DNA of 64,000 bases from Adhaeribacter arboris (GTDB lineage Bacteria; Bacteroidota; Bacteroidia; Cytophagales; Hymenobacteraceae), in contig NZ_PYFT01000001.1 in assembly GCF_003023845.1 (NCBI RefSeq), positions 1,054,001-1,118,000 on the forward strand. Reading direction: 5' to 3'. This document shows, in pieces, positions 6,017-51,116 of the stretch. Made by a program: the position numbers and the translations under genes. Below the pieces are notes generated by a model. The model was given only the letters and a program-made list of their open reading frames with translations. It did no database searches and was not told the origin of the DNA. Positions within the stretch are counted from its first letter, which is position 1; every line of letters begins with the position of its first letter.

Positions 6017-6033
6017 CATCCTGCGGTATCCTG
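6017..6033 (-). promoter_or_regulatory. Tandem direct-repeat operator, site 1 (rhaM)
   Basis: The minus strand reads CAGGATACCGCAGGATG: two 7-mers with a 10-bp period. It lies 107 bases upstream of rhaM and reads toward it. It is back-to-back with site 2 in the 659-base divergent region 5911-6569, which otherwise is AT-rich and carries no gene I can support. Confidence 0.75.
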
Positions 6034-6247
6034 GGAAAGGAATAGCAGGGAAGTTAATCATTTCTTAAACTTTTTAGCTAGTTATAATTTTACCGAACAA
6101 ATGAACAAAAGATAAAAAGATTACGAATAAAAACCTTTTCATCTGCTTCCATTTGGCGAGCTGTCTTTTTTGTTCCACCGATGCAACCCCGTATTTCCTA
6201 CCCGCCTTAACGCTTCATTTCTTTTTCGATTAAAAAAGTACTCTTTA

Positions 6248-6264
6248 CAGGATAGTGCAGGATA
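6248..6264 (+). promoter_or_regulatory. Tandem direct-repeat operator, site 2
   Basis: The plus strand reads CAGGATAGTGCAGGATA, a perfect direct repeat of the 7-mer with a 3-base spacer. It lies about 305 bases upstream of the 911-aa propeller/cytochrome gene and reads toward it. The long leader between them holds no ORF that I can support. Confidence 0.78.
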
Positions 6265-6569
6265 GGTATTTTAACCAGAATGACTACATTAGATAATCCT
6301 TAGTTAAGGAGGTTTGGTTATAAAATGTTAGTTAAATTTCACTTGAATCAGTACTTTCATTTCTTCGCTTTTACTCACTTTGGTTGGCAGAATAAAGTAA
6401 CGGATCAAAAATTATCTATTCTTTAATATAAGTAAAGTAAACTTATCAGGCATCAGAACAACAGAAGAAAATATTTAACTTTAATGCTACAACTCACTTT
6501 TTATCAAACTTTTAAACGTTCACTTATTCAGCTTATTTACTAACTATACTGTTCTTCAAAATCAGTCAT

Positions 6570-9305
6570 ATGAACAAAAGTACATCTGGAATTAAATTGT
6601 TGCTCACGCTCTCGGTCTCCTTTATGGTGGGAACCTCTTGTCGAAACGCCAAAGAAGCGGAGACCCAGGCGCAGGCGGCGGCTACCACCGAAACAAAAGC
6701 TGTTCAGGTAACCAGCCCTAAAGTCGAAAAATTAAAACTGCCTACTGGTTTTCAGGCCGAACATTTATACAGCCCCTCGGAGAACAAGCAAGGCTCTTGG
6801 GTGGCCATGGCCTTCGATAATAAAGGCCGGTTAATTACCTCGGATCAATACGGCTTTTTATACCGCTTAGAATTGCCGGCTATGGGCACGGGCGGCAAAC
6901 CCAAGATAGAGCGCTTAAACGTGGGCATTGATAATACGGTTAGTGCCGATACCACCAAACCAAAAGTAGGCATGGGTTACGCGCAAGGCTTATTATACGC
7001 TTTTAACAGCCTGTACGTAATGATTAACCACAACAGCGATCAGAATTTTGAAAAAGGCAGTGGTTTGTACCGCCTGCAAGACATGGATGGCGATGATCAG
7101 TACGAAAAAATTACTTTAATAAAATCGCTAAAAGGAGAAGGAGAACACGGACCGCACAGCATAAAATTATCGCCCGACGGCAAGTCTTTGTACGTGGTGG
7201 CCGGTAATTTTACCGACATTCCGGAAATGAATGCTTACCGTTTACCAAAGGTTTGGGGCGAAGATAATATATTACCTTTAATTACGGATCCCCGCGGCCA
7301 CGCTACCGACCGGATGGCGCCGGCTGGTTGGATTGCTAAAATAAATCCGGAAGGAACGGACTGGGAACTAGTAGGCGCTGGTTTGCGCAATACCTACGAT
7401 ATTGATTTTAACGAAGCCGGCGATTTATTTGCGTACGACTCCGATATGGAATGGGATTTTGGGATGCCCTGGTACAAGCCTACCCGGATTTTGCACGTTA
7501 CCAGCGGGGCCGAATTTGGCTGGCGCACCGGTAATAGCTCTTGGTCGCCGACTTACGCCGATAATTTACCTCCGGTGTTAAACATTGGTCAAGGTTCGCC
7601 TACTAACTTTATGAGCGGTAGCAAAGCCAAATTTCCCGAGAAATACCGCCAGGCCATGTTTGCCTTCGATTGGAGCTTTGGTATTATTTACGCCGTGCAC
7701 TTAAAACCGCAAGGTGCTTCGTATACCGCTACCGCCGAAGAATTTATTTCCGGCTCGCCGCTGCCTTTAACCGATGGCACCATTGGTCCGGATGGGGCGA
7801 TGTACTTTTTAACCGGTGGCCGCCGGCTCGACTCTGATTTGTACCGGGTATATTACACCGGCAATAACGCTATTACCACTGCGGCTTCTCCTAGTTCATC
7901 GGTTGCGAACGACCCTTTGCATCAGCTTAGAAAGAAACTGGAACAATACCACGGCGAACCACAAGCCGGTGCCATAGAATTTGCCTGGTCTAATTTAAAG
8001 CACAGCGACCGGTTTATCCGTTACGCCGCCCGCATTGCCGTGGAACACCAGCCAGTAGCAGAGTGGCAGAATAAAGCTTTAAAAGAAATGGATCCGGTAA
8101 TTGCTACCCAAGCGGGTATTGCTTTGGCTCGTAACGGTGACAAATCCTTGCAAAACCGCTTGCTTACTAACTTAACGAAAGTTAATTACAACCCACTTTC
8201 CGAAACGCAACAGTTAGAATTACTGCGCGCCATCGAATTAACTTTAGCGCGGATGGGGAAACCCGATGCTTCCATGAGTGCCCGCCTGAATTCATATTTA
8301 AACGCGCATTATCCGGCCCAAAACAACGATGTAAACCGGTTGATCTGTAAAATTTTGGTTTATGTTGATTCGCCGACGGTAGTCGCTAAAACCATGGACA
8401 TGTTCGATAAAGCCAAAGATGATAATTCAAACCAAAAAACCTTTACCGAATCATCCGATTTGATTTTACGGAACCCGCAATATGGTTTGGATATCGCTAA
8501 TATGCTGGCCAAATTTCCACCGGCTCAGCAAATGTACTACGCTACCGCGCTAAGTGCTGCTAAAAAAGGCTGGACCCCGGATTCGCGGGAAAAATACTTC
8601 TCCTGGTATGCTTCCGCCTTTAAAAATTATGCGGGTGGCAGAAGTTTTGTCGGCTTTTTAGACCGGTCCCGGAAAATTGCTTTGCAAAACGTACCGCAAA
8701 ATAAAGTAGAGTACTACAATAAATTATCCGGAAGCGAATTGCTTACCAGTTCTGGCTTGGATATGGCCACTACCGGCGTGCAGCCAAAAGGACCCGGTAG
8801 AAACTGGAAATTACCGGAAGCCGCTGCTGCGGTAGAAGGTAAATTAGAAAACCGAAATTATGAGCAAGGAAAAGCCATGTTTGCCGCTAGTATGTGCATT
8901 TCCTGCCATAGCATACGGGGCGAAGGGGGGGCCGTTGGTCCGGAACTAACGCAATTAGGCACCCGCTTTTCGGTCAACGATATGCTGGTCCACATCATTG
9001 ATCCGAACAAATACGTTTCTGATCAGTATGCTTCCACCGTATTTATTTTAAAAGATGGCACTTCGGTTTTAGGCCGTTTGGTGAAAGAAGACGCCAATAA
9101 ATACTCGATTTCGCAAAACCCATTTGCCCCGGAAACCCTGCGGGATATTCCTAAATCGGAGGTTGCGCAAACCAAACTCTCTAATGTATCGATCATGATG
9201 CCGGGTTTGATCAACCGCTTAAACGAGGAAGAGTTAAAAGATTTAATTGCCTATTTGATGGCGGGCGGTAATAAAGAACATACCGTTTATGCCGCGAAAA
9301 AGTAA
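6570..9305 (+). CDS. Propeller-HEAT-cytochrome c lipoprotein (PVC-type haem-binding)
   Basis: A 911-residue exported protein. The N-terminus is a signal peptide ending in a GTSC lipobox at about residue 24, followed by an Ala/Thr/Glu linker. Residues ~55-430 resemble the six-bladed propeller of soluble sugar dehydrogenases (SPDGKSLYV, YDIDFNEAGDLF and GPDGAMYFL blades). Residues ~455-700 are HEAT-like helices. A cytochrome c domain at ~765-900 has C776-I-S-C-H780. This family occurs widely in Planctomycetes and Cytophagales; a role in periplasmic sugar oxidation is suspected, not proven. The tandem repeat upstream suggests co-regulation with rhamnose genes. The 10981-13235 pseudogene is a paralogue in layout. 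Confidence 0.85.
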   Translation: MNKSTSGIKLLLTLSVSFMVGTSCRNAKEAETQAQAAATTETKAVQVTSPKVEKLKLPTGFQAEHLYSPSENKQGSWVAMAFDNKGRLITSDQYGFLYRLELPAMGTGGKPKIERLNVGIDNTVSADTTKPKVGMGYAQGLLYAFNSLYVMINHNSDQNFEKGSGLYRLQDMDGDDQYEKITLIKSLKGEGEHGPHSIKLSPDGKSLYVVAGNFTDIPEMNAYRLPKVWGEDNILPLITDPRGHATDRMAPAGWIAKINPEGTDWELVGAGLRNTYDIDFNEAGDLFAYDSDMEWDFGMPWYKPTRILHVTSGAEFGWRTGNSSWSPTYADNLPPVLNIGQGSPTNFMSGSKAKFPEKYRQAMFAFDWSFGIIYAVHLKPQGASYTATAEEFISGSPLPLTDGTIGPDGAMYFLTGGRRLDSDLYRVYYTGNNAITTAASPSSSVANDPLHQLRKKLEQYHGEPQAGAIEFAWSNLKHSDRFIRYAARIAVEHQPVAEWQNKALKEMDPVIATQAGIALARNGDKSLQNRLLTNLTKVNYNPLSETQQLELLRAIELTLARMGKPDASMSARLNSYLNAHYPAQNNDVNRLICKILVYVDSPTVVAKTMDMFDKAKDDNSNQKTFTESSDLILRNPQYGLDIANMLAKFPPAQQMYYATALSAAKKGWTPDSREKYFSWYASAFKNYAGGRSFVGFLDRSRKIALQNVPQNKVEYYNKLSGSELLTSSGLDMATTGVQPKGPGRNWKLPEAAAAVEGKLENRNYEQGKAMFAASMCISCHSIRGEGGAVGPELTQLGTRFSVNDMLVHIIDPNKYVSDQYASTVFILKDGTSVLGRLVKEDANKYSISQNPFAPETLRDIPKSEVAQTKLSNVSIMMPGLINRLNEEELKDLIAYLMAGGNKEHTVYAAKK

Positions 9306-20545: not shown

Positions 20546-23500
20546 TTAGAAGTTAAGACTAGCACCTACGGAGAAAGTTCTTGGCACCGGATAAGATTCA
20601 TCGTCATTATTTAGTTCGGTGCCGCCCCGCACACCGGCATCGGGGTTATTGCCCGGATAGTCCGTAATCAAAAACATGTTGGAGGCATTGATAAATATCC
20701 GGGCGTTAGTTAAGACAGATTTTATTTGCGGTAGAGTATAACCCAGAGTAATATTTTTCACCCAGATATGGCTGGCATCGTACACATAGCGTTCGCTGCT
20801 TTCCCGCGACCATTTAAAGTAGTTGGTGCCGCCCTGCGAATTTTTAGCATTGGGGTTAGATCCCGGATTTTCGGGGGAGCGCCAGCGGTCTTTGGCTTTA
20901 TCTAACACATTAAATACGCCATCCATATTCATGGTAGAAGCCTCAATGTTCCGGTAAACATCGTAGTTCTGAGCGCCGGTAAATAAAATATTAAAATCGA
21001 AGCGCTTGTAATCGGCGGCAAAGGTCCAGGCCCAGGTAAAAGCCGGATTAGGATTGCCAATCTCCACCATGTCTTTGGTATCGTAAGAAATTACCCCGTC
21101 ACCGTTGGCATCAAAAAACTTCATCCCCCCCGGAATAACCCCGTCTTGTTTAGGTGCCGCATCAATTTCGGCCTGGGTATTAAAAATGCCTAATTTTTTA
21201 TAACCGTATATCATCCCAATCGGGCGACCCACTTTCTGCACGTTGTAGCCGCCGTAAAAGCCGCCGTACCAGAGCATATCATTGGCTCCTTTTATGGCCA
21301 ATATTTTACTCCGGTTAAAGGTTATATTCGGGCTGGTACGGAAATTAACGGGGCCAATAGCAGTTTTAAATTCCAGTCCAAATTCAAAGCCTTTGTTCTG
21401 CACCTTTCCAATGTTGGCTAAGCTGGTAGTAAACCCGGAAACCGCCGGAATGGAAATAGGCAGTAACATATCGTTGGTAATCTTTTTGTAATACTCGGCC
21501 GTTAAGACTATTTTATTATTCAGCAACGCTAAATCCAGACCCAGGTCTAACTGATTCGATTTTTCCCAGCCCAACTCCGTATTAGCAAAAGAACTTACTA
21601 TTTTACCCGGGGCAAAAGCGTTCCCCAATATGTAATTATTGGCATTCATAAAAGCTAGGTGCGAATAATTACCAATATTGTTATTACCGGTCATCCCCCA
21701 ACTAGCCCGCAGTTTTAAATCGTTTAACCAGGTAAATTTGGGCATAAAAAGTTCTTCGGAAACGCGCCAGCCCAAAGAGGCCGCCGGGAAATTACCGTAT
21801 TTATTTTTCTCCCCGAACCGCGAGCTTCCTTCCCGCCGCATGGAAGCCGAAAATAAGTATTTATCTCTAAAGGAATAATTTACCCGGCTCAGGTAAGCCA
21901 GTAAGTTCCAGCCGTATTCGTAGGAATTAGACGAGCGGATAGAAGCCGCCCCCAGATAAGGCACTAAATCATCGGGAAAAGTATTGCCCGAACCATCCAC
22001 TCCCCGCACTTTTTCTTCCTGGGCTGTAAAACCAACCAATACATCCAAATGGTGATTAGCGCCTAATTCGGGTGCGTAGGTAAGCAGTTGATCCGTAGAA
22101 AGATTGTACAATTGTTCGGTAATTTCCCGGGCCGTAGCGGTTTTAGGTGGCGCACCTGCCGTTCCGGAACCCAGAGCCGAGCCAATGGTAGACGGAATAT
22201 ACTCGTTGTAGTTATTATAATTTAATTTCGCGTTTACGGAGGAACGGAATTTCAAACCCTTGAACAAGGAGAGCTCTACGTACCCGTTCGATAAAACATC
22301 GGCAATGTTTCTTCGACGGGTAATATTTTTTAAGGCAAATACGGGATTAGGATAGCCAAAAACACCGTCGGCGCCGCCAATGTAAGGCCTTAAAGAACCG
22401 TCTTCGTTATACATGGGCTCCCGGGGGTCCATAATCAAGGTAGAACCCACCAGGGCATCTCGGCCATCGGTATTGGCTACATTTTGTTTGGAGTAGCTGC
22501 CATTAATATTAAAGCCAATGGCGATAAATTTATTTACTTCACCAGCCAAATTAGCCCGCGCCGAAATCCGGTCGTAATTGGTTTCAATAATAGAACCTTG
22601 CTCTTTAAAATAACCCACTGACAGAACCGATTTTATGGGTCCTTTGCCGGACGAAAGCGTTAGGTTATAATCTTGATAAGGAGCATTATTATTTAGAATT
22701 TCGTCGAACCAGTTGGTGGAGTATTTGGTTTGTTCCGGAAAACGGAATCCAATCGGCACTTCGGAAATATCCGGTTCGCGTTTTTGAAAATACCGGATAT
22801 TATCCATGAAAACTTCTTTCTTGAATTGAGCAAATTCTACTCCGTTCAGCACCGATACTTTCCGGGAATCCGGAATATTCTGAATGCCGTAATCGGCAGT
22901 AAAGGTTAAGCCAACTTTGCCTTCCTTCGCGCTTTTAGTCGTAATTAAAACTACGCCGTTAGATCCTCGGGCACCATAAATAGCCGTTGAGGCGGCATCT
23001 TTCAGAATGGTAATACTTTCAATATCGTTGGGGTTTAAATTTTGCCCCACATTGGTTCCTACCGCAAAACCATCTATTACGTACAAGGGGTCGCTGCCGG
23101 CCCCCAAGGAACTAATGCCCCGTACCCGTACTTCAAACTGACTACCGGGCGTACCATTTTTTTGTTTTACCGCTACTCCGGGTGCCTGGCCCTGAATTAA
23201 TCGGGTGACGTTAGAGGCCGGAACTTCCCCGATATCGCCCATATTTATATTAGATACCGCCGAAGTAATATCCCGTTTCCGTTGCGTGCCGTAGCCTACT
23301 ACTACCACTTCTTCCAAAGCCTTCACATCGGCACCCAGCGTAATGTTAATAGAGTTGCGGTTATTAATGGCAACTTCCTGGGTATTATAACCAATAAAAG
23401 AAATTACTAAGGTGCCTTCGCCATTGGGTACAGTTAAACTATAATTACCCGATGGGTCGGTTGAGGTACCGTTGGTGGTTCCTTTGAGCAACACGGTAAC

Positions 23501-23638
23501 GCCAGGTAGGCCTTCGCCTTTATCTCCCGTGACCTTACCGGTAACCGCGATATTTTGCGCCCAGGCTTCGGTCGTGGCCATTAGCAACAGCAGAAATAGA
23601 AGCATATACTTCCGCTTTTTTGGTAAATAGTCTTTCAT
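20546..23638 (-). CDS. SusC/RagA TonB-dependent transporter 1
   Basis: About 1,030 residues; the start is taken at MKDYLPKKRKY, four codons inside the longest frame, because it gives a compact signal peptide ending in AWAQ. A carboxypeptidase-D-like domain follows (GKVTGDKGEGLPGVTV). Then come a TonB box region (EEVVVVGYGTQRKRD), a plug with the DPLYVIDG and ILKDAASTAIYGARGSNGVV motifs, and a beta barrel ending in aromatic FSVGASLNF. It imports oligosaccharides with its SusD partner. A perfect copy of the tandem repeat lies 362 bases upstream. The genes behind SusD, a DUF1549/DUF1553 cytochrome, DUF1501 and NHL, may share its transcript. Confidence 0.95.
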   Translation of the reverse strand: MKDYLPKKRKYMLLFLLLLMATTEAWAQNIAVTGKVTGDKGEGLPGVTVLLKGTTNGTSTDPSGNYSLTVPNGEGTLVISFIGYNTQEVAINNRNSINITLGADVKALEEVVVVGYGTQRKRDITSAVSNINMGDIGEVPASNVTRLIQGQAPGVAVKQKNGTPGSQFEVRVRGISSLGAGSDPLYVIDGFAVGTNVGQNLNPNDIESITILKDAASTAIYGARGSNGVVLITTKSAKEGKVGLTFTADYGIQNIPDSRKVSVLNGVEFAQFKKEVFMDNIRYFQKREPDISEVPIGFRFPEQTKYSTNWFDEILNNNAPYQDYNLTLSSGKGPIKSVLSVGYFKEQGSIIETNYDRISARANLAGEVNKFIAIGFNINGSYSKQNVANTDGRDALVGSTLIMDPREPMYNEDGSLRPYIGGADGVFGYPNPVFALKNITRRRNIADVLSNGYVELSLFKGLKFRSSVNAKLNYNNYNEYIPSTIGSALGSGTAGAPPKTATAREITEQLYNLSTDQLLTYAPELGANHHLDVLVGFTAQEEKVRGVDGSGNTFPDDLVPYLGAASIRSSNSYEYGWNLLAYLSRVNYSFRDKYLFSASMRREGSSRFGEKNKYGNFPAASLGWRVSEELFMPKFTWLNDLKLRASWGMTGNNNIGNYSHLAFMNANNYILGNAFAPGKIVSSFANTELGWEKSNQLDLGLDLALLNNKIVLTAEYYKKITNDMLLPISIPAVSGFTTSLANIGKVQNKGFEFGLEFKTAIGPVNFRTSPNITFNRSKILAIKGANDMLWYGGFYGGYNVQKVGRPIGMIYGYKKLGIFNTQAEIDAAPKQDGVIPGGMKFFDANGDGVISYDTKDMVEIGNPNPAFTWAWTFAADYKRFDFNILFTGAQNYDVYRNIEASTMNMDGVFNVLDKAKDRWRSPENPGSNPNAKNSQGGTNYFKWSRESSERYVYDASHIWVKNITLGYTLPQIKSVLTNARIFINASNMFLITDYPGNNPDAGVRGGTELNNDDESYPVPRTFSVGASLNF

Positions 23639-23999
23639 AAATAACATCATTTAGCTGTAGATGAAATAATTAGAACCTGTATAAAGAGTAAGCAGATAAA
23701 ATTTTTAAAATAGTCTGGCCCATACTAGTAGTAATATACCCAGGATAAAACCAAGGCAGAATACCTGTTATAGGTTGACAGAAATGAATGTACTTTACAT
23801 GAAAACTTACCTATTAATATGTCTAGAGATACCTCTATATAATTAAGACTCGTCCGGTTCAGCTGGAAGCTTATTTAGCCGTACGTGCGGCTTTACACCT
23901 GTGTGATTTTTTCTGAAAGCATATACTTTATCTTTCAGCCTTATAAATTTTGCAGGTATATTTTATAAGGTAAAATTTATTGAATTAAATAAAGGGAAC

Positions 24000-24016
24000 T
24001 ATCCTGTTGTATCCTG
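24000..24016 (-). promoter_or_regulatory. Tandem direct-repeat operator, site 3 (SusC 1)
   Basis: The minus strand reads CAGGATACAACAGGATA, perfect 7-mers with a 10-bp period, oriented toward SusC 1. The rest of the 509-base gap 23639-24147 is AT-rich. It contains an ORF-like frame at 24063-24269 that overlaps the end of the neighbouring gene and looks spurious. Confidence 0.78.
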
Positions 24017-32387: not shown

Positions 32388-32404
32388 TATCCTGCCGTGT
32401 CCTG
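32388..32404 (-). promoter_or_regulatory. Tandem direct-repeat operator, site 4 (FG-GAP gene)
   Basis: The minus strand reads CAGGACACGGCAGGATA: one mismatch in the first 7-mer, 10-bp period kept. It is oriented toward the FG-GAP gene and sits in the 479-base divergent region shared with site 5. The rest of that region is AT-rich and holds no gene. Confidence 0.7.
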
Positions 32405-32571: not shown

Positions 32572-32588
32572 CAGGATACGACAGGATA
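32572..32588 (+). promoter_or_regulatory. Tandem direct-repeat operator, site 5 (DUF1080 gene)
   Basis: The plus strand reads CAGGATACGACAGGATA, preceded by another A so that ACAGGATA is repeated exactly. It lies 157 bases before the ATG of the DUF1080 gene and reads toward it. Confidence 0.78.
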
Positions 32589-37677: not shown

Positions 37678-37692
37678 AAAAAATTGGGTAGG

Positions 37693-40675: not shown

Positions 40676-43600
40676 TTAGAAATTGACGTTAATACCCAAG
40701 GTATAGGTGCGCGGAACCGGGTAATTAGAAAGGTCGATACCCTGACTTAAATTACCGCCGTTGCCGTTTCCATCGCCTTGAGCGCTGGTTTCCGGATTAG
40801 GACCGCCTTTGTATTTGGTAAATACATAAGCTTGTTGTATTGCAGCGTAAATCCGGGCCGAACGGAATACATTTTTAACTTCGCCGAGGGTGTAACCCAG
40901 GGTAATGTTTTTAATGGTAAAGTAAGAAGCATCGGCAATAAAATGGGTGCTCATCCAATCTCTTTCAATACCGGTAACATTACCCCCGCCAACGGTAGTA
41001 CCAAACATGCCTTTACCGGGATTTTCGGGCGAACGGAAGCGGTCTTTTACGCCACTCACCATGTTAAATACCCCATCCAGGTTAGCGGTACTGTATAAGT
41101 GGCGCATTAACAATTGATTTCCGTAAGAACCAGAACCCACAATGGAGAAGTCGAACTTGCCGTAGCTTAAGTTATTAGTAATACCGTAAATAAAGTCCGG
41201 GAAGGGATTACCGATAATGGTCCGGTCATCGTTATCGCCGCCGTTGGTAATAATACCATCGCCATTGATATCTTTTAATTTAATACTCCCTACGGTAGAG
41301 CGGCCGGGAACCTGGGGTGAATTATTCAGGTCTTCTTCATTCATGTAAAGTCCTTCCTTAATCAAACCATAGAATTGACCGAAGGGCTCCCCTACTTTGG
41401 TAATGTGGAAAGTGCCGTAAACGCGGTCAATACCTTCGGCTAAAGAAATTACTTTATTGCGGTTGAAGGAAATGTTGGCATTAGTAGTCCAAATTAATTT
41501 ACCTTCGGTATTACGGGTATTTACCGCAAATTCATGACCCCAAAAGTCTACTTGGCCAATGTTATCGTTAAAGTTGGTAAAACCAGATTCCTGCGCTATT
41601 TGTACGTTGTATAACAAGTTGGTCGTTTTCTTTTTATAGAAATCGTACATGAAGGTAATGCGGTCGTTGAATAAACCTAAATCCAAACCGGCATCAAATT
41701 GCTTGGTAGTTTCCCAGCTTAAATTAGGGTTAGCGAGGGAAACAACTGCTGAACCAGGCGCCACATTATTACCAAAAGCGGCATTAACCGTGTTGTTAAT
41801 GAGAGCGTAAGGAGTATAATTACCAATATTATTGTTACCGGTTACCCCAAAGCTGGCTCTAACTTTAGCAAAAGAAATTTTAGGAATACTCCGCATGAAT
41901 TCTTCGTCGGATACTACCCAGCCCACGGAAGCGGAGGGGAAAGTACCCCAGCGATTTGCCGAGCCAAAGCGGGAAGAACCATCGCTCCGCACCGCAGCGG
42001 TAAATAAATACTTGCCTTTGTAATTATAAGTTAACCGGGATAATAAGGAGGTTAAGCTCCATTCCTGTACATCGCTGCTGGTTTGGCCGCGGTTGATATT
42101 TAAACCACCCTGGATAGTGGGTAGGCGGTCGTCGGCATAGGTATCGGCTTGAATGCGACTGCCATCAAATTGAAAACGTTGGTTCGTATAACCGCCTAAG
42201 AGCTCAAAATGATGATCGTTGAAACTCTTGCTGTAGGTAGCCAAATTTTCGTTCAGCCAGGTGAAAACCTGGGTGTTGTTCCGGATAGATACCGCTGTGG
42301 TAGGGATAGGAGTATTTATAGCGCTGGTAGCGGTAGAAGGATTAAAGAAAAAGAATTTGTTATTATACAGTTCGGCGTTAAAGGTTGTTTTGAGTACTAA
42401 ATCTTTAATCGGCCGGAATTCCAGGAAGGTATTACCAAGAATGTTTACGCTTTTATTTTCGTTCACCAACTCTTTCGCGGAACGCACCCAGTTCGGATAA
42501 TCGAAAATATTACCCGTATTGGCCGGGAAGCGGTTAAACTTGGTTAACTCGCCATTTTCATCGTAAATAGGCATAACCGGCCAGGTATGCAAGGCATTGA
42601 ATAAAATACCGGTTCCCCGGTCGCCATCGGTACGCGGGGTATTATCAAATATATAAGAAGGAGCTAGGTTAAAACCAAGCCGGAATTTATCGGATGCATC
42701 GTACGTAGTATTTAACCGTAGCGAATATCTTTTGTATTCGTTATTCAAAACGACTCCTTGCTGATTGAAAACCCCGGCTACTACGGCGGTATTTACTTTT
42801 TCTTTGTTGGAGGTAATGGTTAAGTTATAGCTTTGCATAGGGGCGGTACGCAGCAAAGCGTCGTACCAATCGTTGTTTTTACCCCGGTACTGCGCGGGGT
42901 TCTGAAAAGCTTCCGGTACCGGTTGACCGGCATCTTCGTAATATTCTTTTTTGAATTGCGCAAATTCTTCGGCGTTCAACATTTCAATCCGGCCCCTTTC
43001 TGGTACTTTCTGGATGCCCACGAAAGAACTAAAGCTTACGTTAGTTTGCCCGCTTTTTCCTCTTTTGGTGGTGATTAATACTACCCCATTGGCGGCCCGT
43101 GAACCGTATAAAGAAGTAGAAGCCGCATCTTTTAGAATAGAAATATCTTCGATTTCGTCGGGGTTTAGGGTGCTGATACTACCGGTAATCGGGAAACCAT
43201 CCACCACGTACAAGGGATCGCTGCCGCCTAATACGGATAATTGCCCCCGGATACGAACCGAAATACCCTGACCCGGTTTACCGGTAGCTTGGGTAATTTG
43301 CACGCCGGCTAACCGGCCTTGTAGTTTTTGGGTTACTTGGGAAACGGGAATGTCCTTAATTTCTTTGGCCGTAACGGTTTGTACGGCGCCGGTTACTTCT
43401 TTTTTAAGCTGGCTGCCGTAGCCTACTACTACCACTTCGTCTAAGGCTTTGGTATCGGGTACCAAAGTTACGTTAATGGACGCGCGGTTATTAATGGCAA
43501 CTTCCTGGGTGGTGTAGCCGATAAAAGAAACTACCAAAGTACCGGTGCCATTGGGGGCATTTAACGAAAAAGCGCCCGTGCCATCCGTAGCAGTACCATT

Positions 43601-43765
43601 CGTGGTGCCTTTTACCAGAATAGTTACCCCCGGTAAACCTTCGCCTTTATCGCCGGATACTTTACCCGTAATAGTTAAACCCTGGGCATTGGCGTGGCTC
43701 CAGGAAAGGAAAATCAACGGCAGCAGACAGGCATACTGCATCATTTTAAGTAATCTGTGCTTCAT
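40676..43765 (-). CDS. SusC/RagA TonB-dependent transporter 2
   Basis: A 1,029-residue outer-membrane transporter. It has a signal peptide (ending in NAQG), the regulatory-like domain GKVSGDKGEGLPGVTILVKG, TonB-box context DEVVVVGYGSQLKKE, plug motifs DPLYVVDGFP and ILKDAASTSLYGSRAANGVVL, and a barrel ending in an aromatic residue (TYTLGINVNF). The first ~110 residues are nearly the same as in SusC 1. A tandem repeat with one changed 7-mer lies about 157 bases upstream and reads toward the gene. Confidence 0.95.
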   Translation of the reverse strand: MKHRLLKMMQYACLLPLIFLSWSHANAQGLTITGKVSGDKGEGLPGVTILVKGTTNGTATDGTGAFSLNAPNGTGTLVVSFIGYTTQEVAINNRASINVTLVPDTKALDEVVVVGYGSQLKKEVTGAVQTVTAKEIKDIPVSQVTQKLQGRLAGVQITQATGKPGQGISVRIRGQLSVLGGSDPLYVVDGFPITGSISTLNPDEIEDISILKDAASTSLYGSRAANGVVLITTKRGKSGQTNVSFSSFVGIQKVPERGRIEMLNAEEFAQFKKEYYEDAGQPVPEAFQNPAQYRGKNNDWYDALLRTAPMQSYNLTITSNKEKVNTAVVAGVFNQQGVVLNNEYKRYSLRLNTTYDASDKFRLGFNLAPSYIFDNTPRTDGDRGTGILFNALHTWPVMPIYDENGELTKFNRFPANTGNIFDYPNWVRSAKELVNENKSVNILGNTFLEFRPIKDLVLKTTFNAELYNNKFFFFNPSTATSAINTPIPTTAVSIRNNTQVFTWLNENLATYSKSFNDHHFELLGGYTNQRFQFDGSRIQADTYADDRLPTIQGGLNINRGQTSSDVQEWSLTSLLSRLTYNYKGKYLFTAAVRSDGSSRFGSANRWGTFPSASVGWVVSDEEFMRSIPKISFAKVRASFGVTGNNNIGNYTPYALINNTVNAAFGNNVAPGSAVVSLANPNLSWETTKQFDAGLDLGLFNDRITFMYDFYKKKTTNLLYNVQIAQESGFTNFNDNIGQVDFWGHEFAVNTRNTEGKLIWTTNANISFNRNKVISLAEGIDRVYGTFHITKVGEPFGQFYGLIKEGLYMNEEDLNNSPQVPGRSTVGSIKLKDINGDGIITNGGDNDDRTIIGNPFPDFIYGITNNLSYGKFDFSIVGSGSYGNQLLMRHLYSTANLDGVFNMVSGVKDRFRSPENPGKGMFGTTVGGGNVTGIERDWMSTHFIADASYFTIKNITLGYTLGEVKNVFRSARIYAAIQQAYVFTKYKGGPNPETSAQGDGNGNGGNLSQGIDLSNYPVPRTYTLGINVNF

Positions 43766-43921: not shown

Positions 43922-43938
43922 TATCCTGCACTATCCGG
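43922..43938 (-). promoter_or_regulatory. Tandem direct-repeat operator, site 6 (SusC 2)
   Basis: The minus strand reads CCGGATAGTGCAGGATA. The first 7-mer has CCGG in place of CAGG, the same variant as at site 8. It reads toward SusC 2. The 719-base gap 43766-44484 also contains site 7 and an ORF-like frame (44124-44429) with no protein family character. Confidence 0.72.
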
Positions 43939-44326: not shown

Positions 44327-44343
44327 CAGGACGGAGCAGGATA
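44327..44343 (+). promoter_or_regulatory. Tandem direct-repeat, orphan site 7
   Basis: The plus strand reads CAGGACGGAGCAGGATA: the second 7-mer is exact, the first has two mismatches. It points to the right, where the next gene is the 3' end of the minus-strand kinase. No plus-strand gene downstream is supported, so it may act on SusC 2 from a distance or as a remnant. Confidence 0.55.
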
Positions 44344-44484: not shown

Positions 44485-45804
44485 TTACCAGATATTCAGT
44501 ATCATGGCGGCACCCAGCGCCGTACCTTGAGAATTCTCCGAAACTATTAGTTGTAAGTTAGGAAAAGCCTTTTGTAGTAAACGCATGAATACTTTGTTTT
44601 TACAAAAACCACCGTCTACCAGCAAATTTTTAAAAGTATTTAATCTGTATTCACCGGCCAGGTGAATGGCTTTAATTTGAGGTTCCGTAATGTTTACCAG
44701 TAAAGCATGGTACGCTTCCTCGTAGGACGTATACAAACTGCAATCTAAGGCAATGCCCAGTTGAGGATTAACTTGCGTGGAAGTAGGATTGGAAGGGCTT
44801 TGGTTAACTTCCGCTATCGTTGGCCGAACCAATTTAGGATTATAAACAACGGTCTTGTAATAATCATCCGGTTTGTTAAAATAGGAAGCTAGTTTCTTGG
44901 TTTGAACTTCGTGTTCGTTGCCGATAAATACCCGGGAAGCCCGGACGGGTTTTCCATCGTAAGTAAAATAGTTCAGGCAATCCTGCTGCAACATTTCTTC
45001 CGTTAATGGCTCCTGCGCAAAGGGGTTTAAGGTAATTCCCCAGGTACCCGTAGAAAGCAGCAAAAAAGGTTCGGTATATTTTTTTAAATACGGAATTAAA
45101 GCGGCGGAACTGTCGTGTAATCCAATACCGGCCGGAATTCTTTTTTCCCGAAAACGAACATCGAAAGTGGTCTGGTGTTCGGTAATTTGGGGCAATAAGC
45201 GAATAATATCTTCCTGGTATACCCAGCGGTGGTAATGGTTACTCGTAAAATCCCATAAACCGGTGTGGCAACCTATACTGGTGTATTCCGATACTTTATG
45301 ACCCGTAAACAAAGAAGCACAAAACTGGGGTAAGTGCAAGGAGGTTTGGATCTGTTTAAATAATTCCGGCTTTTTATATTTAAGCCAATACAATTGCAAC
45401 CCCGAATTCAGCATACCTAAGGGCGGTGAAGCAGTTTGGGCGGCAAAAGCCAGCACCGAACCATATTGTTGGTGAAATTGCTCGTGCAAGTCTTCTGGGT
45501 ACGGCTTTAAGTAAGAATATAACGGCGTAGCCGGTTTATTTTGCGCGTTTAGGTGCACGAAACTGGCTCCGTAGGTAGTAAAATTAAGCCCGACAATGTT
45601 AAAACGCGTATCGGCTTCGAGGTTTTGCCAGGTAATTTTGAGCCAATTAATCAAAGAGGTCAAATCCTCGGCCGGTTCACCATCATCGTCTAAAATCTCC
45701 GGAAAGCGGGTTTCAATTTCGTGTACAATTTGATAGGAAGAATCAAAAAGAACGCATTTCTTGTTCGTTTTACCAATATCAAAAATTGCTACACAAGGCA
45801 CCAT
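44485..45804 (-). CDS. FGGY-family carbohydrate kinase, likely L-rhamnulokinase
   Basis: A 439-residue cytoplasmic kinase. It has the N-terminal ATP-binding phosphate-1 motif AIFDIGKTNKKCVLFD, the mid-domain GIGLHDSSAALIPYL with the catalytic Asp of FGGY enzymes, LLLSTGTWGITLNPF, and LLVDGGFCKNKVFMRLL followed by GTALGAAM near the end. L-rhamnulokinase phosphorylates L-rhamnulose at O1. The assignment to rhamnulose comes from its place after the L-rhamnose isomerase and the aldolase. The sequence diverges from E. coli RhaB, so another keto-sugar (e.g. L-fuculose) is possible. It lies 60 bases behind the isomerase gene. Confidence 0.82.
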   Translation of the reverse strand: MVPCVAIFDIGKTNKKCVLFDSSYQIVHEIETRFPEILDDDGEPAEDLTSLINWLKITWQNLEADTRFNIVGLNFTTYGASFVHLNAQNKPATPLYSYLKPYPEDLHEQFHQQYGSVLAFAAQTASPPLGMLNSGLQLYWLKYKKPELFKQIQTSLHLPQFCASLFTGHKVSEYTSIGCHTGLWDFTSNHYHRWVYQEDIIRLLPQITEHQTTFDVRFREKRIPAGIGLHDSSAALIPYLKKYTEPFLLLSTGTWGITLNPFAQEPLTEEMLQQDCLNYFTYDGKPVRASRVFIGNEHEVQTKKLASYFNKPDDYYKTVVYNPKLVRPTIAEVNQSPSNPTSTQVNPQLGIALDCSLYTSYEEAYHALLVNITEPQIKAIHLAGEYRLNTFKNLLVDGGFCKNKVFMRLLQKAFPNLQLIVSENSQGTALGAAMILNIW

Positions 45805-45864: not shown

Positions 45865-47148
45865 CTACAGCCCGGTAGAATAAGTTTTTACTCCTCTTTG
45901 ATTAATCAACTCTTGCCGGATTTTGTTTTGCCGGTAAAAAGCAAGAGGATCAATGGCGGCTCCACTTTCCAGCCGGGCTTGCGCCAACAAAGGCCGCACA
46001 TCGGTCCGGAATGCGTGCTGTAAAATTTCCTGGGCTGTAGTGGTATCGTTTTGTTCTTGAGCGTTTTCTAATTTTTTGCGGTCAACAATAAGGGCCTGAG
46101 CTAAGGCTATTTTAATGGCTTCTATGGATTGCAGTAAATCTTCTAAAGGATCTTTCACGTTATGGCTCGCATCTATCATCCAACTTAAGGCCGGATTTTG
46201 CACTTCCTGGCTGGCCATTCCTTCGACTAATTCGTTAAAAATTAAAAATAGCTGAAACGGCTGCATGGCGCCTACGGTCAAATCATCGTCGCCGTACTTG
46301 GAATCGTTAAAGTGGAATCCGCCCAGTTTGCCTTCCATTAAAAATCTCGAAACAATCTGCTCAATGTTGGTATTCGGTAAATGGTGACCCAAATCCACTA
46401 AACCCAGCGCTTTTTCGCCCAATTTTTGGCAGAATAGGAGGGAAGTGCCCCAATCAGCTACCACGGTAGAATAAAAATGCGGTTCGTAAGGTTTGTACTC
46501 AATAAATACTTTCCAATCTTCGGGTAAAGCATCATAAATCTGCTGAAAAGAATCTAAGGTACGCTGAAAGGAACGACGGAAATTTTGCTGGCCCGGAAAA
46601 TCGGTACCATCCGATAACCAAATGGTTAAAGCTTTAGAACCTAAATCAATTCCGTGTTTAATTACTTCTACGTTATGCGCAATGGCTTGGTCGCGAACCT
46701 GCTTATCGGTGTGCGACAAAGAACCAAACTTATAAGAATAATTCTGATCGTTTTGGTCCTGGAAGGTATTCGAATTTACCGCATCAAACTGTAATTCAAA
46801 AGAAGCGGCTAGTTGTTTTATAGCCGTTGCATTCTGGGGAATATCCCAGGGAATGTGCAACGAAATGGCTCCACTCGATTGATTAAGAGCGTGCAATAAA
46901 CCTACATCTTCCATTTTCTCTTCTAAGCTACGCGGTTCGCCACCACCCGAAAACCGGCCAAAGCGCGTGCCGCCGGTACCCAAAGCCCAACTTGGTATGG
47001 CAATCTGAAAAGCCGCTAATTGCTCCAGCAGGGCGGTTACATCGTGCCCCTCATCTTGCAAAGTAGCCTTCAGAAAGTTAAATTTCTTTTGCTGAGTAGC
47101 CGCTAGCTGCTCGTTATATTGCTGAATCAGAGATTTATCTAAAATCAT
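45865..47148 (-). CDS. rhaI: L-rhamnose isomerase, RhaI type
   Basis: A 427-residue cytoplasmic TIM-barrel enzyme of the RhaI branch, which converts L-rhamnose to L-rhamnulose. Motifs include PSWALGTGGTRFGRF near residue 53, VFIEYKPYEPHFYSTVVADWG (Glu ligand), LGLVDLGHHLPNTNIEQIV (Asp and His ligands) and LGGFHFNDSKYGDDDLTVGA (Asn/Asp ligands). Length is right for the family. It sits between the kinase and the aldolase/dehydrogenase on one strand. No tandem operator lies in the 229 bases in front, so it probably relies on the promoter before the aldolase gene. Confidence 0.92.
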   Translation of the reverse strand: MILDKSLIQQYNEQLAATQQKKFNFLKATLQDEGHDVTALLEQLAAFQIAIPSWALGTGGTRFGRFSGGGEPRSLEEKMEDVGLLHALNQSSGAISLHIPWDIPQNATAIKQLAASFELQFDAVNSNTFQDQNDQNYSYKFGSLSHTDKQVRDQAIAHNVEVIKHGIDLGSKALTIWLSDGTDFPGQQNFRRSFQRTLDSFQQIYDALPEDWKVFIEYKPYEPHFYSTVVADWGTSLLFCQKLGEKALGLVDLGHHLPNTNIEQIVSRFLMEGKLGGFHFNDSKYGDDDLTVGAMQPFQLFLIFNELVEGMASQEVQNPALSWMIDASHNVKDPLEDLLQSIEAIKIALAQALIVDRKKLENAQEQNDTTTAQEILQHAFRTDVRPLLAQARLESGAAIDPLAFYRQNKIRQELINQRGVKTYSTGL

Positions 47149-47377: not shown

Positions 47378-49510
47378 CTACCGTACGAAAGCGGCCGGAA
47401 CACCCCCATCCACGTTCAGCACGTTACCGGTACTTTTATTCAGCAAGCCCCCCACGTATAAAAATACCGCATTCGCCATGTCTTCGGCCAGTAGTTCTTC
47501 GTTCAGCACGGTACGTTTGGCGTAATAAGCCGGCAATTCAGCAACGGTAATACCGTAAGCCTTCGCGCGGCCTTCGGCCCAACCGCTTTCCCAGATTTTA
47601 CTGCCCCGGATTACCGCATCCGGGTTTACCACGTTCACCCGTATTTTATCCGGACCTAACTCGGCTGCCATTAACCGCGACATGTGTAATTGAGCGGCTT
47701 TGGCGGTACCGTAGGCCACATTGTTGGGTCCGGAAACCAAGGCGTTTTTACTCACAATATTTACAATGTCGCCGCCCAATTGCTGCTTGCGCATAATGCG
47801 AATACCCTGCTGGGATACTAAGAACTGACCTTTTACCAGTACATCCTGTAAAATATCGTAATCGGTCTCGGTGGTTTCCAAAATAGGTTTGGAGATGGAT
47901 AAACCTGCGCAATTCACCACAATATCTACTCCTCCGAAATTTAAATTAGCGGTCCGGAAAGCATTACTAATCGCTTGGGAACTGGTAACATCTACCACGG
48001 AGGTTGCCGCCGTATCACGGCCAAACTTTTTCTTAAATTCGGTATGGGCTTCCTGCAAATCATTTTCCCGCATATCCACCATTACCACACACGCGCCTTC
48101 TTGCGCCAGCTTATCAGCAATGGCTTTTCCAATACCACCGCTACCACCCGTAATTAAGGCAACCTTGCGCGATAAGGGTTTTTCTTTGGGCATACGCTGT
48201 AATTTTGCTTCTTCTAAAAGCCAGTATTCAATATCAAAGGCTTCCTGCTCCGGTAAACCCCGGTATTCCGAAATGGCTTCGGCGCCGCGCATGACATTAA
48301 TAGCATTGATGTAGAACTCGCTGGCTACCCGGGCGGTTTGTTTATCTTTAGCGAAAGAAAACATACCTACTCCTGGGTAGATTATAATTACCGGGTTGGC
48401 ATCGCGCACGGCGGGGCTGTTGGGGTGTTTACTTCTTTCGTAATAAGCCGTGTAATCGGCGCGATACGCTTCAAACTGTTCGGTTAATTGTGCTTTTAGC
48501 TTTTCCGGTTCGGAAATGTCGGCATCCGGCGATAGATTAAGTACTAAAGGCCGGATTTTGGTGCGTAGAAAATGGTCCGGGCAACTGGTTCCTAAAGGCG
48601 CTAAAGTTGCTAAATCGTTGCTGTTGATATATTCCAGTACGCGCTCATCGTCGGTAAAATGCCCAATCATGCGGTTTTGGCTCGAACACAAGCCCCGCAA
48701 TACCGGTATTATTTCACTAGCTTTATTTAATCTTTCTTCAGCGGGTAAAGGGGTAAGTTTGGCGCCGCCAAAAATTGCCCGTTTTTTACCGTAATTTTGC
48801 TGCAAGAATTCCGATGCTTTTTCAATAGTTTCCAGGGTATTCATATAGCTTTCGTAAGCGGTATCGCCCCAGGTAAATAAACCGTGACTGCCCAGAATAA
48901 TACCCGTAATGCCGGGATTGTCTTGTACCGCTTTTTCCATTTGCAGTCCTAAATCAAAACCGGGCCGTTGCCAAGGCACCCAGGCTATTTTGCCGCCGAA
49001 TAATTCTTTCGTGATTTGCTCTCCCTCTTTGGCCGCCGCGATGGCAATAATAGCATCCGGGTGCAAGTGGTCGATGTGTTTAAACGGTAGAAAAGCGTGT
49101 AAAGGAGTATCAATGGAAGGAGCTTTCGAATCTAAATCGTAAATACAGTGGTTAAACAGCGCCACCATTTCGTCTTCATGGGCCAAACCCCGGTACCGGT
49201 TTTTCAGGCTGTGCAGTTTATCGACGTACAAAGCGGCTAAACCGCTTTTCTTTAAGGTTCCCAGGTCACCGCCGGAACCTTTTACCCACATTACTTCTAC
49301 ATCTTGCCCGGTTAAGGGGTCCGGTTGATACACCTTGCAACTGGTATTGCCCCCGGCGTAATTAGTTAAACGGAGGTCAGCCCCTAGTAAATTAGACCGA
49401 TAAATTAATAAAGCTACCTCGTCGTTCTTTAAAGCGCTTGCTTCTTGCTCGTCCCAAAGATAACTTACGTATTTAAAAGTGGTAGTTGCGGCCGCATTAT
49501 CCATATTCAT
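47378..49510 (-). CDS. Bifunctional rhamnulose-1-phosphate aldolase / short-chain dehydrogenase
   Basis: A 710-residue fusion. Residues ~1-420 are a class II aldolase domain: TNYAGGNTSCK, VMWVKGSGGDLGTLKKSG, the GLAHEDEMVALFNHC segment, LHAFLPFKHIDHLHPDAI and GITGIILGSHGLFTWG with metal-site histidines. Residues ~440-700 are an SDR dehydrogenase: VALITGGSGGIGKAIA, VVNCAGLS and the active-site YGTAK motif. The aldolase splits L-rhamnulose-1-phosphate into DHAP and L-lactaldehyde, which the SDR half oxidises to L-lactate. This fusion is known from Bacteroidota and Proteobacteria as the RhaD-like alternative. A tandem operator lies 166 bases upstream. Confidence 0.93.
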   Translation of the reverse strand: MNMDNAAATTTFKYVSYLWDEQEASALKNDEVALLIYRSNLLGADLRLTNYAGGNTSCKVYQPDPLTGQDVEVMWVKGSGGDLGTLKKSGLAALYVDKLHSLKNRYRGLAHEDEMVALFNHCIYDLDSKAPSIDTPLHAFLPFKHIDHLHPDAIIAIAAAKEGEQITKELFGGKIAWVPWQRPGFDLGLQMEKAVQDNPGITGIILGSHGLFTWGDTAYESYMNTLETIEKASEFLQQNYGKKRAIFGGAKLTPLPAEERLNKASEIIPVLRGLCSSQNRMIGHFTDDERVLEYINSNDLATLAPLGTSCPDHFLRTKIRPLVLNLSPDADISEPEKLKAQLTEQFEAYRADYTAYYERSKHPNSPAVRDANPVIIIYPGVGMFSFAKDKQTARVASEFYINAINVMRGAEAISEYRGLPEQEAFDIEYWLLEEAKLQRMPKEKPLSRKVALITGGSGGIGKAIADKLAQEGACVVMVDMRENDLQEAHTEFKKKFGRDTAATSVVDVTSSQAISNAFRTANLNFGGVDIVVNCAGLSISKPILETTETDYDILQDVLVKGQFLVSQQGIRIMRKQQLGGDIVNIVSKNALVSGPNNVAYGTAKAAQLHMSRLMAAELGPDKIRVNVVNPDAVIRGSKIWESGWAEGRAKAYGITVAELPAYYAKRTVLNEELLAEDMANAVFLYVGGLLNKSTGNVLNVDGGVPAAFVR

Positions 49511-49675: not shown

Positions 49676-49692
49676 CATCCTGTACTATCCGG
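49676..49692 (-). promoter_or_regulatory. Tandem direct-repeat operator, site 8 (aldolase/dehydrogenase)
   Basis: The minus strand reads CCGGATAGTACAGGATG, with the CCGG variant and a final G. It reads toward the fused aldolase gene and probably controls the aldolase, isomerase and kinase genes behind it. Confidence 0.7.
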
Positions 49693-49760: not shown

Positions 49761-50831
49761 CTACGAAGCAAGGTAATTGCCGTATCCTACAACCATGGTG
49801 GAGGCAATTACGGTTACTATTCCTAAAATAATTACCCGCATGGTTCGGGGACTGGCGCCTTTCCATTCGTTAAAGTAAATGCCCCAAACATTGCTCACGA
49901 TGATAATAAAAGCCATGTGCAAAGTCCAGCTAGAAAAACCCAGACCGTTGGCCGAGAATAAGCTTTCGCCCATGCCGTAAAAAAAGAATTGTAAATACCA
50001 GGTAGTGCCCGCAATGGCCGAAAACAAATAATTACGAGCCAAGGGAGTACCGGAATTTATATAATCGCCTCCTGTTTTATTCCGGATATTTAAGTACAAA
50101 CACCAGATAAAATTAGTAGTTAAACCTCCTAATAAAATTACGACTAAAGTGGGATTGTTTTGCCAAAGCGGGTCGATGCCGCGGGCCACGGTAGCCTCGG
50201 CAATCGGTTTGCCGGTTTCGTAACCAAACGACATAAAAGCACTTAGCACTCCCGAAAAAATGGCCACAATCAATCCTTTCGGAAAGTTAAATTCTTTAAT
50301 ATTGGCAGTTTTTTGTTCGGCGGATAGCTCTTTTTCTTTTAAAGTACCGGCTTTGCCGCAAATAGCAATTCCCGCTAAACACAATAAAACGCCCGCAAAA
50401 ATGACTAGTCCGGAAGTAGTGCTCAATAACTCGGTTATGGTTTTCGCGTTACCGGACCTTCCAAAAAATTCGTAAAAAATGGGCGGAATAAGCGTACCGA
50501 AAGCCGCGCAAAAACCCAGTACAATCGCCATCCCTAACGACAGCCCCAAATAACGCATGGTTAAACCAAAGGTTAAACCGCCAATACCCCACAATAAGCC
50601 CATTAGGTAGGTGTAGAACAAAGTAGAACTCTCGGTATTGGCTAAGGTTATAAAATAACCGGGAGCAGTAAGCGCGGCCCCGAGCGGCGGCACAATTAAC
50701 CAGGAAAAAACGCCCCCCACTAACCAATAACTTTCCCAGGCCCATTTTTTTACTTTACTAAAAGGAATATAGAAACTACCTGAAGCAAAACCACCGATAA
50801 AATGATAGAGGAGTCCGAGAATAACCTGCAT
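49761..50831 (-). CDS. rhaT: L-rhamnose/H+ symporter
   Basis: A 356-residue inner-membrane protein with ten predicted helices, of the RhaT (drug/metabolite-type) family. Motifs are the opening LLYHFIGGFASGSFYIPF, KKWAWESYWLVGGVFSWLIVP, GLTFGLTMRYLGLSLGMAIVLGF, SFGYETGKPIAEATVARG and the late GTTWYLQFFFYGMGES. It imports L-rhamnose with protons. It is a single gene with its own tandem-repeat operator (51100-51116) and a Bacteroidota-type promoter between them. Its presence fixes L-rhamnose as the substrate of the region. Confidence 0.95.
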   Translation of the reverse strand: MQVILGLLYHFIGGFASGSFYIPFSKVKKWAWESYWLVGGVFSWLIVPPLGAALTAPGYFITLANTESSTLFYTYLMGLLWGIGGLTFGLTMRYLGLSLGMAIVLGFCAAFGTLIPPIFYEFFGRSGNAKTITELLSTTSGLVIFAGVLLCLAGIAICGKAGTLKEKELSAEQKTANIKEFNFPKGLIVAIFSGVLSAFMSFGYETGKPIAEATVARGIDPLWQNNPTLVVILLGGLTTNFIWCLYLNIRNKTGGDYINSGTPLARNYLFSAIAGTTWYLQFFFYGMGESLFSANGLGFSSWTLHMAFIIIVSNVWGIYFNEWKGASPRTMRVIILGIVTVIASTMVVGYGNYLAS

Positions 50832-51040
50832 GTGGGAGCGCGTTATAAGAAATGTTGATTAAAGAGTTATAAAATTATGTTGTAAGTAAATTTAAAATAA
50901 TAGAACATTCGTTAAACCTGCTCTCGGTAAACCAACTTTGTTCAGCCTGCCCTATTTTTCCACCCCAGTCCTTAGCCTGTTGTAACTTTAATAAATAGTA
51001 TAAACTTATTTTTAAAATGGAAGCTTACTTGAATCAAGTT

Positions 51041-51070
51041 CAAAAGTAAATTACTAAATCAGCTTAGCAA
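51041..51070 (-). promoter_or_regulatory. Bacteroidota-type promoter of rhaT
   Basis: On the minus strand a TTG (plus 51068-51070) is followed after 19 bases by TACTTTTG (plus 51041-51048), matching the -33 TTG and -7 TAnnTTTG consensus of Bacteroidota. Transcription would start near 51035, about 200 bases before the ATG. The tandem repeat is then centred near -73. Confidence 0.5.
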
Positions 51071-51099
51071 TGAAAAGTAGATGATTTGCTATCGGAAAC

Positions 51100-51116
51100 T
51101 ATCCTGCTCCATCCTG
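51100..51116 (-). promoter_or_regulatory. Tandem direct-repeat operator, site 9 (rhaT)
   Basis: The minus strand reads CAGGATGGAGCAGGATA; one mismatch. It lies upstream of the predicted rhaT promoter, reading toward the gene, a place more typical for an activator than a repressor. The rest of the 513-base gap 50832-51344 is AT-rich without an ORF. Confidence 0.75.

Follow-up and report, generated by a model that had tools for sequence, protein, structure and literature searches.

A tandem direct repeat as the proposed operator of a GntR-type rhamnose regulator in Adhaeribacter arboris and its relatives

The rhamnose regulators surveyed by Rodionova et al. (2013, PMC3870299) belong, according to the accessible part of that survey, to the AraC, DeoR and LacI types, Bacteroides using an AraC-type RhaR, and the term GntR has no occurrence in its main text. 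Operators made of direct repeats are known in the GntR family for FarR, NagQ, NanR, GabR and TauR, as reported in the available sections of PMC4494728 and PMC5320631. The locus considered here lies in a stretch of 64,000 nucleotides from contig NZ_PYFT01000001.1 of Adhaeribacter arboris (the window, whose own numbering is used below). It carries rhamnose genes, a gene encoding a GntR-type protein at 4410 and several copies of a tandem direct repeat, CAGGATA-N3-CAGGATA. This repeat is quite probably the operator of an activator combining a GntR DNA-binding domain with a LacI-like sensor, for which the name RhaR is proposed and which would control a rhamnose regulon. The original prediction regarded such head-to-tail sites as unusual for GntR proteins. 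They are indeed uncommon, but the five regulators named above show that they are not without precedent.

The repeat and its distribution among genomes

The repeat was found at 6017, 6248, 24000, 32388, 32572, 43922, 44327, 49676 and 51100. Three copies are exact (6248, 24000 and 32572), four have one mismatch (6017, 32388, 43922 and 51100) and two have two mismatches (44327 and 49676). At up to two mismatches the window contains nine matches, all of them intergenic as originally stated, while intergenic DNA represents only 16% of its length. Allowing three mismatches raises the number to 16 (mean of 3.3 and maximum of 10 in 100 dinucleotide shuffles), and five of the seven added matches are genic, which corresponds to background. 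The strict 10-bp period claimed for the repeat was recovered as the only clearly enriched same-strand spacing: with at most one mismatch per half-site, eight pairs lie at distance 10, and no other distance between 7 and 44 has more than three. Opposite-strand pairs in the window, counted with the same tolerance, number at most two at any spacing and none is enriched. The element is therefore a direct repeat and not the palindrome that is typical, though not universal, of GntR operators. In the larger set of sites used below for the promoter geometry, the unit extends past CAGGATA on both sides and reads R-CAGGAYA-S-N, each half-site being preceded by R and followed by G or C. Eight of the nine copies read toward a gene, as had been claimed.

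A genome-wide search (7.25 Mb) with the loosened pattern CMGGAYRN3CAGGATR gives 11 matches, of which nine are inside the window, against one for the reversed pattern used as a control; the motif is thus not scattered. The two other matches precede a SusC gene (C1:37641) and a gene whose orthologue in genome G024 encodes a xylose-isomerase-like TIM barrel (C1:1934712). In the window, positions 32378 and 51090 carry weaker third half-sites, and three tandem half-sites with a 10-bp period, forming two overlapping sites, are seen in relatives at L147:4803-4829 and L167:5010-5036.

The distribution of the sites was compared with that of the GntR gene in a family sample of 200 genomes, a close GntR being defined as a full-length orthologue with at least 65% identity. 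The 21 genomes that possess one (clade A) carry 4-14 sites each, against 0-3 in each of the remaining 179. The gene rhaEW, encoding a bifunctional rhamnulose-1-phosphate aldolase/dehydrogenase, is present in 88 of the 200 genomes, including all 21 of clade A. None of the 67 rhaEW-bearing genomes devoid of a close GntR reaches four sites, and because they have at most two each, the sites track the close GntR gene and not rha genes generally. Whether the sites follow this gene had been set as a check on the original prediction. They do (at least four sites in 21/21 genomes versus 0/179, and 0/67 when rhaEW is present without a close GntR), and the protein at 4410 stands as the best local candidate for the regulator. 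The LacI gene at 52293 is, by Pfam, the only other DNA-binding regulator among the profiled open reading frames of the window, a set that leaves out the third SusC/D pair. Its distribution rejects it as the regulator, as it is present in 10 of the 200 genomes and in just 7 of the 21 of clade A.

Of the 28 loci obtained by scanning for the GntR protein, fourteen, from Adhaeribacter, Pontibacter, Rufibacter and Botryobacter, reach at least 65% identity, and 12 of these 14 have a match at up to two mismatches in 20 kb. SusC, rhaM or rhaEW genes adjoin the sites at the GntR loci. No site was found at up to two mismatches near the GntR gene of Siphonobacter. Around more distant relatives (L029-L039, 33-45% identity), the matches at up to two mismatches (L029, L033 and L036) are all genic and the operator motif was not found.

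The GntR protein and a second group with a changed half-site

The candidate regulator (4410..5426, plus strand) has 338 amino acids. It belongs to the GntR family by its N-terminal winged helix (Pfam GntR, 41.8 bits for a cut-off of 27) and its C-terminus is a Peripla_BP_3 domain, a sugar sensor of LacI/PurR type. In the AlphaFold2 model (predicted local distance difference test score, pLDDT, of 90), the helices and strands of the winged helix come in matching order, and its best Foldseek matches are LacI and PurR (E about 1e-11). This is the architecture of AraR-type regulators, and one phmmer relative with an equal domain plan is the AraR DNA-binding domain (4egy), named arabinose metabolism repressor. 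The protein is not a member of the known RhaR families, its DNA-binding domain being GntR and not AraC, DeoR or LacI, with the sensor alone LacI-like. No site was found before gntR itself in the window. Extra GntR paralogues with 59-62% identity (L025, L130 and L132), altered in helix 2 and the wing, occur in Pontibacter-group and Botryobacter genomes.

A second group of GntR proteins, with 48-55% identity, is encoded close to rhaEW (3 kb at most) in 57 genomes, which most probably are those of Hymenobacter and a neighbouring genus. The pattern CAGGAGAN3CAGGANR, chosen after reading upstream regions, occurs less than 500 bp upstream of rhaEW in 54 of these 57 genomes versus 1 of the 31 other rhaEW genomes. 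The single match among the latter comes from G197, a draft with its GntR on a separate contig. The three misses carry near versions, which differ at the last base in G151 and G189 and consist of a variant on the far-reading side in G172. A pattern used previously, CMGGAGRN3CAGGAGA, was a poor choice (25 of 200 genomes, with at most two matches each). A copy faces rhaEW at 75-108 bp in 48 of the 57 genomes, another faces away at 155-398 bp in 40, and both are present in 34; rhaT is on the away-facing side in 18 of 20 fetched rhaEW upstream regions. In the rhaEW upstream regions of 20 genomes (19 of the 57 plus G002), CAGGAGA is present in all 20, in 19 of them as CAGGAGAGTGCAGGA, and G002 has CATGACACTACAGGAGA with TATTTTAG at +38, counted from the start of the site.

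In the tree, which covers 14 sampled members of the second group with row L126 left out, the window's group (19 rows, support 99/99) is separate from these members (100/99), a sister relation of the two groups not being established. The groups differ at the start of the recognition helix, where S51 becomes A; helix 2 has SEL in place of NET in the second group, and the wing differs too. As far as the sequences tell, sites and GntR protein change together between the groups. The change at base 6 of the half-site could be read by S51 or by neighbouring residues.

Promoter geometry and mode of action

The position of the repeat relative to the promoter was read from 146 sites (up to two mismatches), located in regions of 12 clade-A genomes chosen for containing pattern matches; the 124 sites with a gene start ahead within 900 bp were used. 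In 100 of the 124, the distance from the start of the site to that of TAnnTT is exactly 38 bp. The next-best offset, 16, concerns 13 sites and starts within the site. In three genomes not used before, TAnnTT is found at +38 in 13 of 16 sites; two of the misses have three of the four letters, and the last one, L187, may be a chance match. Among the 19 motif matches of genomes without a close GntR, taken as a negative control from loci already fetched, none has TAnnTT at +38. The flanks are unconserved beyond the repeat-unit edges and this box. TTG is not enriched at the place of a -33 element (no position between site and box has it in more than 6 of 124).

TAnnTTTG is the -7 box of the primary sigma factor of Bacteroidetes, at -12 to -5 in Flavobacterium, according to the accessible part of PMC9723704. 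Because the box starts at +38, the repeat would span about -49 to -33 with its centre at -41, the start sites being deduced from the box. The second half-site thus lies at the would-be -33 element, 20 bp before the TAnnTTTG-type box. Overlap of the -33/-35 region, with fixed distance and polarity to the -7/-10 box, is the geometry of class II activators. The second group keeps this geometry in the TTTG part of the box: among 33 sites from 19 genomes, T43 and T44 are present in all 33, and 29 have TTTG at +42 to +45. In the window, six of the nine sites have the full box. The composite pattern occurs at 5-16 places in each of the six known clade-A genomes and at no more than two in any of the other 285 of an order sample of 291 genomes, 246 of which come from other families where GntR was not searched. 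At 14 bits or more, the composite matrix retrieves only the nine window sites, eight of which are in its training set, and nothing in 10 shuffles. Concerning Siphonobacter, it gives a single weak site at L027 (CCTGACGGAACAGGATA with GACTTTTG, 21 bits), some 470 bp ahead of rhaEW, and none at 12 bits or more at L026.

Site, polarity, spacing, co-occurrence, half-site change and targets are all read from sequence; from them we infer binding, an inducer and activation. Two winged-helix domains would bind head to tail on one helix face, one turn apart. RhaR with bound L-rhamnose, or a product of it, would then most likely act as a class II activator, centred near -41 and recruiting the housekeeping RNA polymerase. 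The sensor dimer, presumably two-fold symmetric, would need flexible linkers for such head-to-tail binding; the confidence of the model drops at residues 81-90 (mean 74), which allows for them. The original prediction proposed no activator role, and the geometry points to this amendment, because the direct repeat, the fixed polarity, the fixed spacing to the -7 box and the lack of a visible -33 element exceed the needs of a repressor. Provided that the GntR protein binds the repeat, activation is likely. The chances are about even for a bolder proposal, in which RhaR would be an obligate class II activator replacing the -33 element, S51 to A and its neighbours would switch CAGGATA to CAGGAGA, and the Adhaeribacter group would link rhamnose to envelope cytochrome and 3-keto-sugar oxidation.

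Other explanations of the repeat have to be weighed against a GntR activator. A GntR repressor blocking RNA polymerase at the -33 region until released by rhamnose would fit the overlap of the sites with this region, and AraR, of like domain plan (4egy), bears the name of an arabinose metabolism repressor. Repressor operators, however, usually tolerate varied positions, whereas here the distance to the -7 box is constant to the base in 100/124 and 13/16 sites with polarity kept, and the absence of an enriched -33 TTG makes the promoters look activator-dependent; repression is thus unlikely. The GntR could also be a passenger, the repeat being bound by a different regulator that accompanies the rha genes (a RhaR of DeoR, AraC or LacI type). 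Such a view would find an echo in the motifs of DeoR-type RhaR, which are direct repeats with a 10-11 bp period (those of the AraC type having 21 bp) in the accessible part of PMC3870299. It is made improbable by the presence of GntR at no more than 3 kb from rhaEW in the 57 second-group genomes, by the half-site that changes with the GntR group and by the occurrence of the LacI of 52293 in 7 of 21 clade-A genomes, this genome-wide comparison of regulators covering the GntR and LacI genes.

A pair of similar half-sites separated by one helix turn would be surprising in a sigma element. An alternative sigma factor using the repeat as a -35-type element would account for the fixed distance to the -7 box, but this box is of the TAnnTTTG type of the primary sigma factor (PMC9723704, accessible part) and the half-site follows the GntR groups, which makes this explanation very improbable. 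A mobile or generic repeat with no regulatory role is hardly credible, as the copies cluster at target genes, are intergenic in 9/9 cases and have flanks unconserved apart from the repeat-unit edges and the -7 box.

Several observations nevertheless weigh against a GntR activator acting through the repeat. A 10-bp direct repeat is unusual as a GntR operator, the two GntR groups represent few independent events, and the sampled genomes share kinship, so that Fisher values overstate independence. L014 and L015, whose GntR has at least 65% identity, have no site in the surrounding 20 kb (they correspond to G096 and G128, which carry 7 and 8 sites elsewhere). The paralogue locus L025 has no site, and G045, where neither rhaEW nor GntR was matched at the applied cut-offs, has three sites. 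Among the 146 sites, 10 are inside called genes and 12 have no called target; the full -7 box is found in 1 of the 10 genic sites and in 5 of 11 readable target-less ones. Three of the four -7 letters are present in 5 of the 19 negative-control matches. In the window, the -7 boxes of 6017 (rhaM) and 32388 (FG-GAP) are imperfect and 44327 has none, and in the second group the TA of the box is weak (11/33) and shifted one base later. Lastly, a few targets have no Pfam match or evident sugar role, for example a helicase-associated-domain protein.

Predicted targets in the window and in related genomes

In 12 sampled genomes, the genes behind the sites are SusC-type (11 genomes), RhaT (8), RhaEW (7) and DUF1080 (6), and further targets include FG-GAP, the cytochrome gene, DUF7133-cytochrome proteins and others. 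Conserved sites before transport and catabolic genes, as expected of an L-rhamnose regulon, are thus seen for RhaT (8/12), for RhaEW (7/12) and in the second group (54/57). In the window's genus, the orthologues of DUF1080 and of the 911-aa cytochrome are each preceded by a site in 6/6 clade-A genomes; the FG-GAP orthologue is so in four genomes, the window's included. The divergent pair of sites between rhaM and the cytochrome gene is also found in G009, G003 and G024, with weaker rhaM-side sites in the last two. To judge from these sequences, the cytochrome and 3-keto-sugar genes are an addition seen in the window's own genus. In the Rufibacter group and Pontibacter, the targets comprise a PL11 rhamnogalacturonan lyase, GH88, GH28, a GH106 alpha-L-rhamnosidase, GH2, GH43, GH115, a sulfatase and fasciclin proteins, a set that appears to be one of rhamnogalacturonan or pectin use. 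Because the targets of relatives include rhamnogalacturonan enzymes, the sense of the regulon would be rhamnose together with rhamnose-containing glycans.

The original prediction of a shared regulon joining rhamnose and cytochrome genes is strengthened by the relatives, in which sites precede rhaT, rhaEW, rhaM, the 911-aa cytochrome gene, DUF1080 and SusC. The RhaR regulon would consist of the genes by which rhamnose is taken up and catabolized, along with SusC/D glycan importers, sugar genes of DUF1080/Gfo-Idh type and PVC-type cytochromes, to which Rufibacter and Pontibacter would add rhamnogalacturonan-degrading enzymes.

In the window, rhaM, encoding an L-rhamnose mutarotase (5596..5910, minus strand, Pfam rhaM), is a predicted target of the site 6017..6033 (minus strand), whose -7 box at 5996-5989 is only partial (GAGCTTTA). 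On the plus strand, the site 6248..6264, with TACATTAG at +38 (6285-6292), precedes the predicted target encoding the 911-aa PVC-type heme-binding CxxCH protein (6570..9305, plus strand; Pfam Cytochrom_C, NCBIfam TIGR02603 above and TIGR02604 below cut-off). The minus-strand site 24000..24016, with TAAATTTT at +38 (23979-23972), lies before SusC 1 (20546..23650, minus strand, Pfam). SusC 1 is the first gene of a proposed target operon that, from order and strand, would also contain SusD 1 (19029-20534) and a PSCyt protein (16434-18938). The window also encodes PSCyt/DUF1501 proteins. At 10981-13235, two overlapping open reading frames each carry a part of DUF7133 (Pfam positions 1-211 and 260-385), a split that may come from a frameshift or from the presence of two genes.

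The gene of the FG-GAP protein (31085..32302, minus strand, Pfam FG-GAP_3), another predicted target, is preceded by the minus-strand site 32388..32404, which has a poor -7 box at +38, AATTTAAG, with TAATTTAA one base earlier (by eye). The plus-strand site 32572..32588, with TAAATTAG at +38 (32609-32616), precedes the predicted target DUF1080, of the 3-keto-disaccharide hydrolase family (32746..33531, plus strand, Pfam). In the same way, the minus-strand site 43922..43938, with TAAATTTA at +38 (43901-43894), precedes SusC 2 (40676..43765, minus strand, Pfam), which may form an operon with its downstream genes at 34042-40632, encoding by Pfam SusD 2, DUF4432, a 407-aa protein, a TIM-barrel and a Gfo/Idh protein.

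The ninth site (44327..44343, plus strand) is in reverse orientation between the stop of an FGGY-kinase gene and SusC 2, and is without a -7 box. It points at the 3' end of the oppositely oriented kinase gene, and no same-strand target gene was called. A site is present at the equivalent place in G003, G009 and G024, with flanks that look unconserved. It is perhaps an auxiliary operator; a small gene or RNA driven by it would be a candidate disfavoured by the unconserved flanks (by eye) and the absent -7 box.

The FGGY sugar kinase (44485..45804, minus strand, Pfam FGGY) is far under the cut-off of NCBIfam rhamnulo_kin and is a proposed rhamnulokinase (RhaB) by context. Next to it lies the gene of a probable L-rhamnose isomerase, RhaI (45865..47148, minus strand), whose match to NCBIfam TIGR02629 is strong (E 5.9e-154) but below cut-off. 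The predicted target rhaEW (47378..49510, minus strand, NCBIfam NF006191 and TIGR02632 above cut-off) follows the minus-strand site 49676..49692, with TAAATTCA at +38 (49655-49648). The gene of the L-rhamnose transporter RhaT (49761..50831, minus strand, Pfam RhaT), also a predicted target, follows the minus-strand site 51100..51116, with TACTTTTC at +38 (51079-51072). The region 52293-61365 carries the LacI regulator, the third SusC/D pair, an alpha-L-fucosidase and a ROK kinase without tandem sites, and is a separate sugar locus.

If the proposed regulation is true, the non-orthologous rhamnose regulators known so far gain a GntR type, and the PVC-type cytochrome genes and DUF1080 come under rhamnose control, which makes their substrates testable. 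The promoter grammar (repeat, 20 bp, -7 box) would predict targets and transcription starts in a Bacteroidetes family on which, to our knowledge, there is little experimental work. The half-site change between the two GntR groups would be a natural specificity switch for GntR recognition.

Comparison with described regulators

Among the titles listed by a literature search that was thin in subscription journals, none is on a GntR rhamnose regulator of this kind. By its architecture, a GntR winged helix followed by a LacI-type sensor, the window protein resembles AraR-type regulators. AraR operators are palindromic and AraR is named an arabinose repressor, whereas the window protein is associated with direct repeats, rhamnose genes and a predicted activator geometry. 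NanR, NagQ and FarR have sensor domains other than the LacI type, and the sensor of the MocR-type GabR and TauR is aminotransferase-like, unlike the LacI-like sensor found here. These five regulators share with the proposed RhaR a GntR winged helix acting on direct repeats, though on other repeat sequences, and the available sections of the two sources (PMC4494728, PMC5320631) do not describe for them a one-turn spacing with a fixed -7 box. GabR is named both autorepressor and activator in the title of a reference listed in PMC9452892.

Within Bacteroidetes, FucR and ManR of Bacteroides are also GntR-family sugar regulators, FucR acting in the parallel fucose pathway. The likeness holds by description, and the study, in its accessible part (PMC3878776), searched palindromic motifs, unlike the direct repeat considered here. 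Finally, the RhaR/RhaS regulons, as described in the accessible part of PMC3870299, are, like the one proposed here, local rhamnose regulons, with RhaEW-type genes among their members and rhamnoside enzymes in certain lineages. The motifs of the DeoR-type RhaR are likewise direct repeats, with a period of 10-11 bp, whereas the regulators themselves are of AraC, DeoR or LacI type and not GntR.

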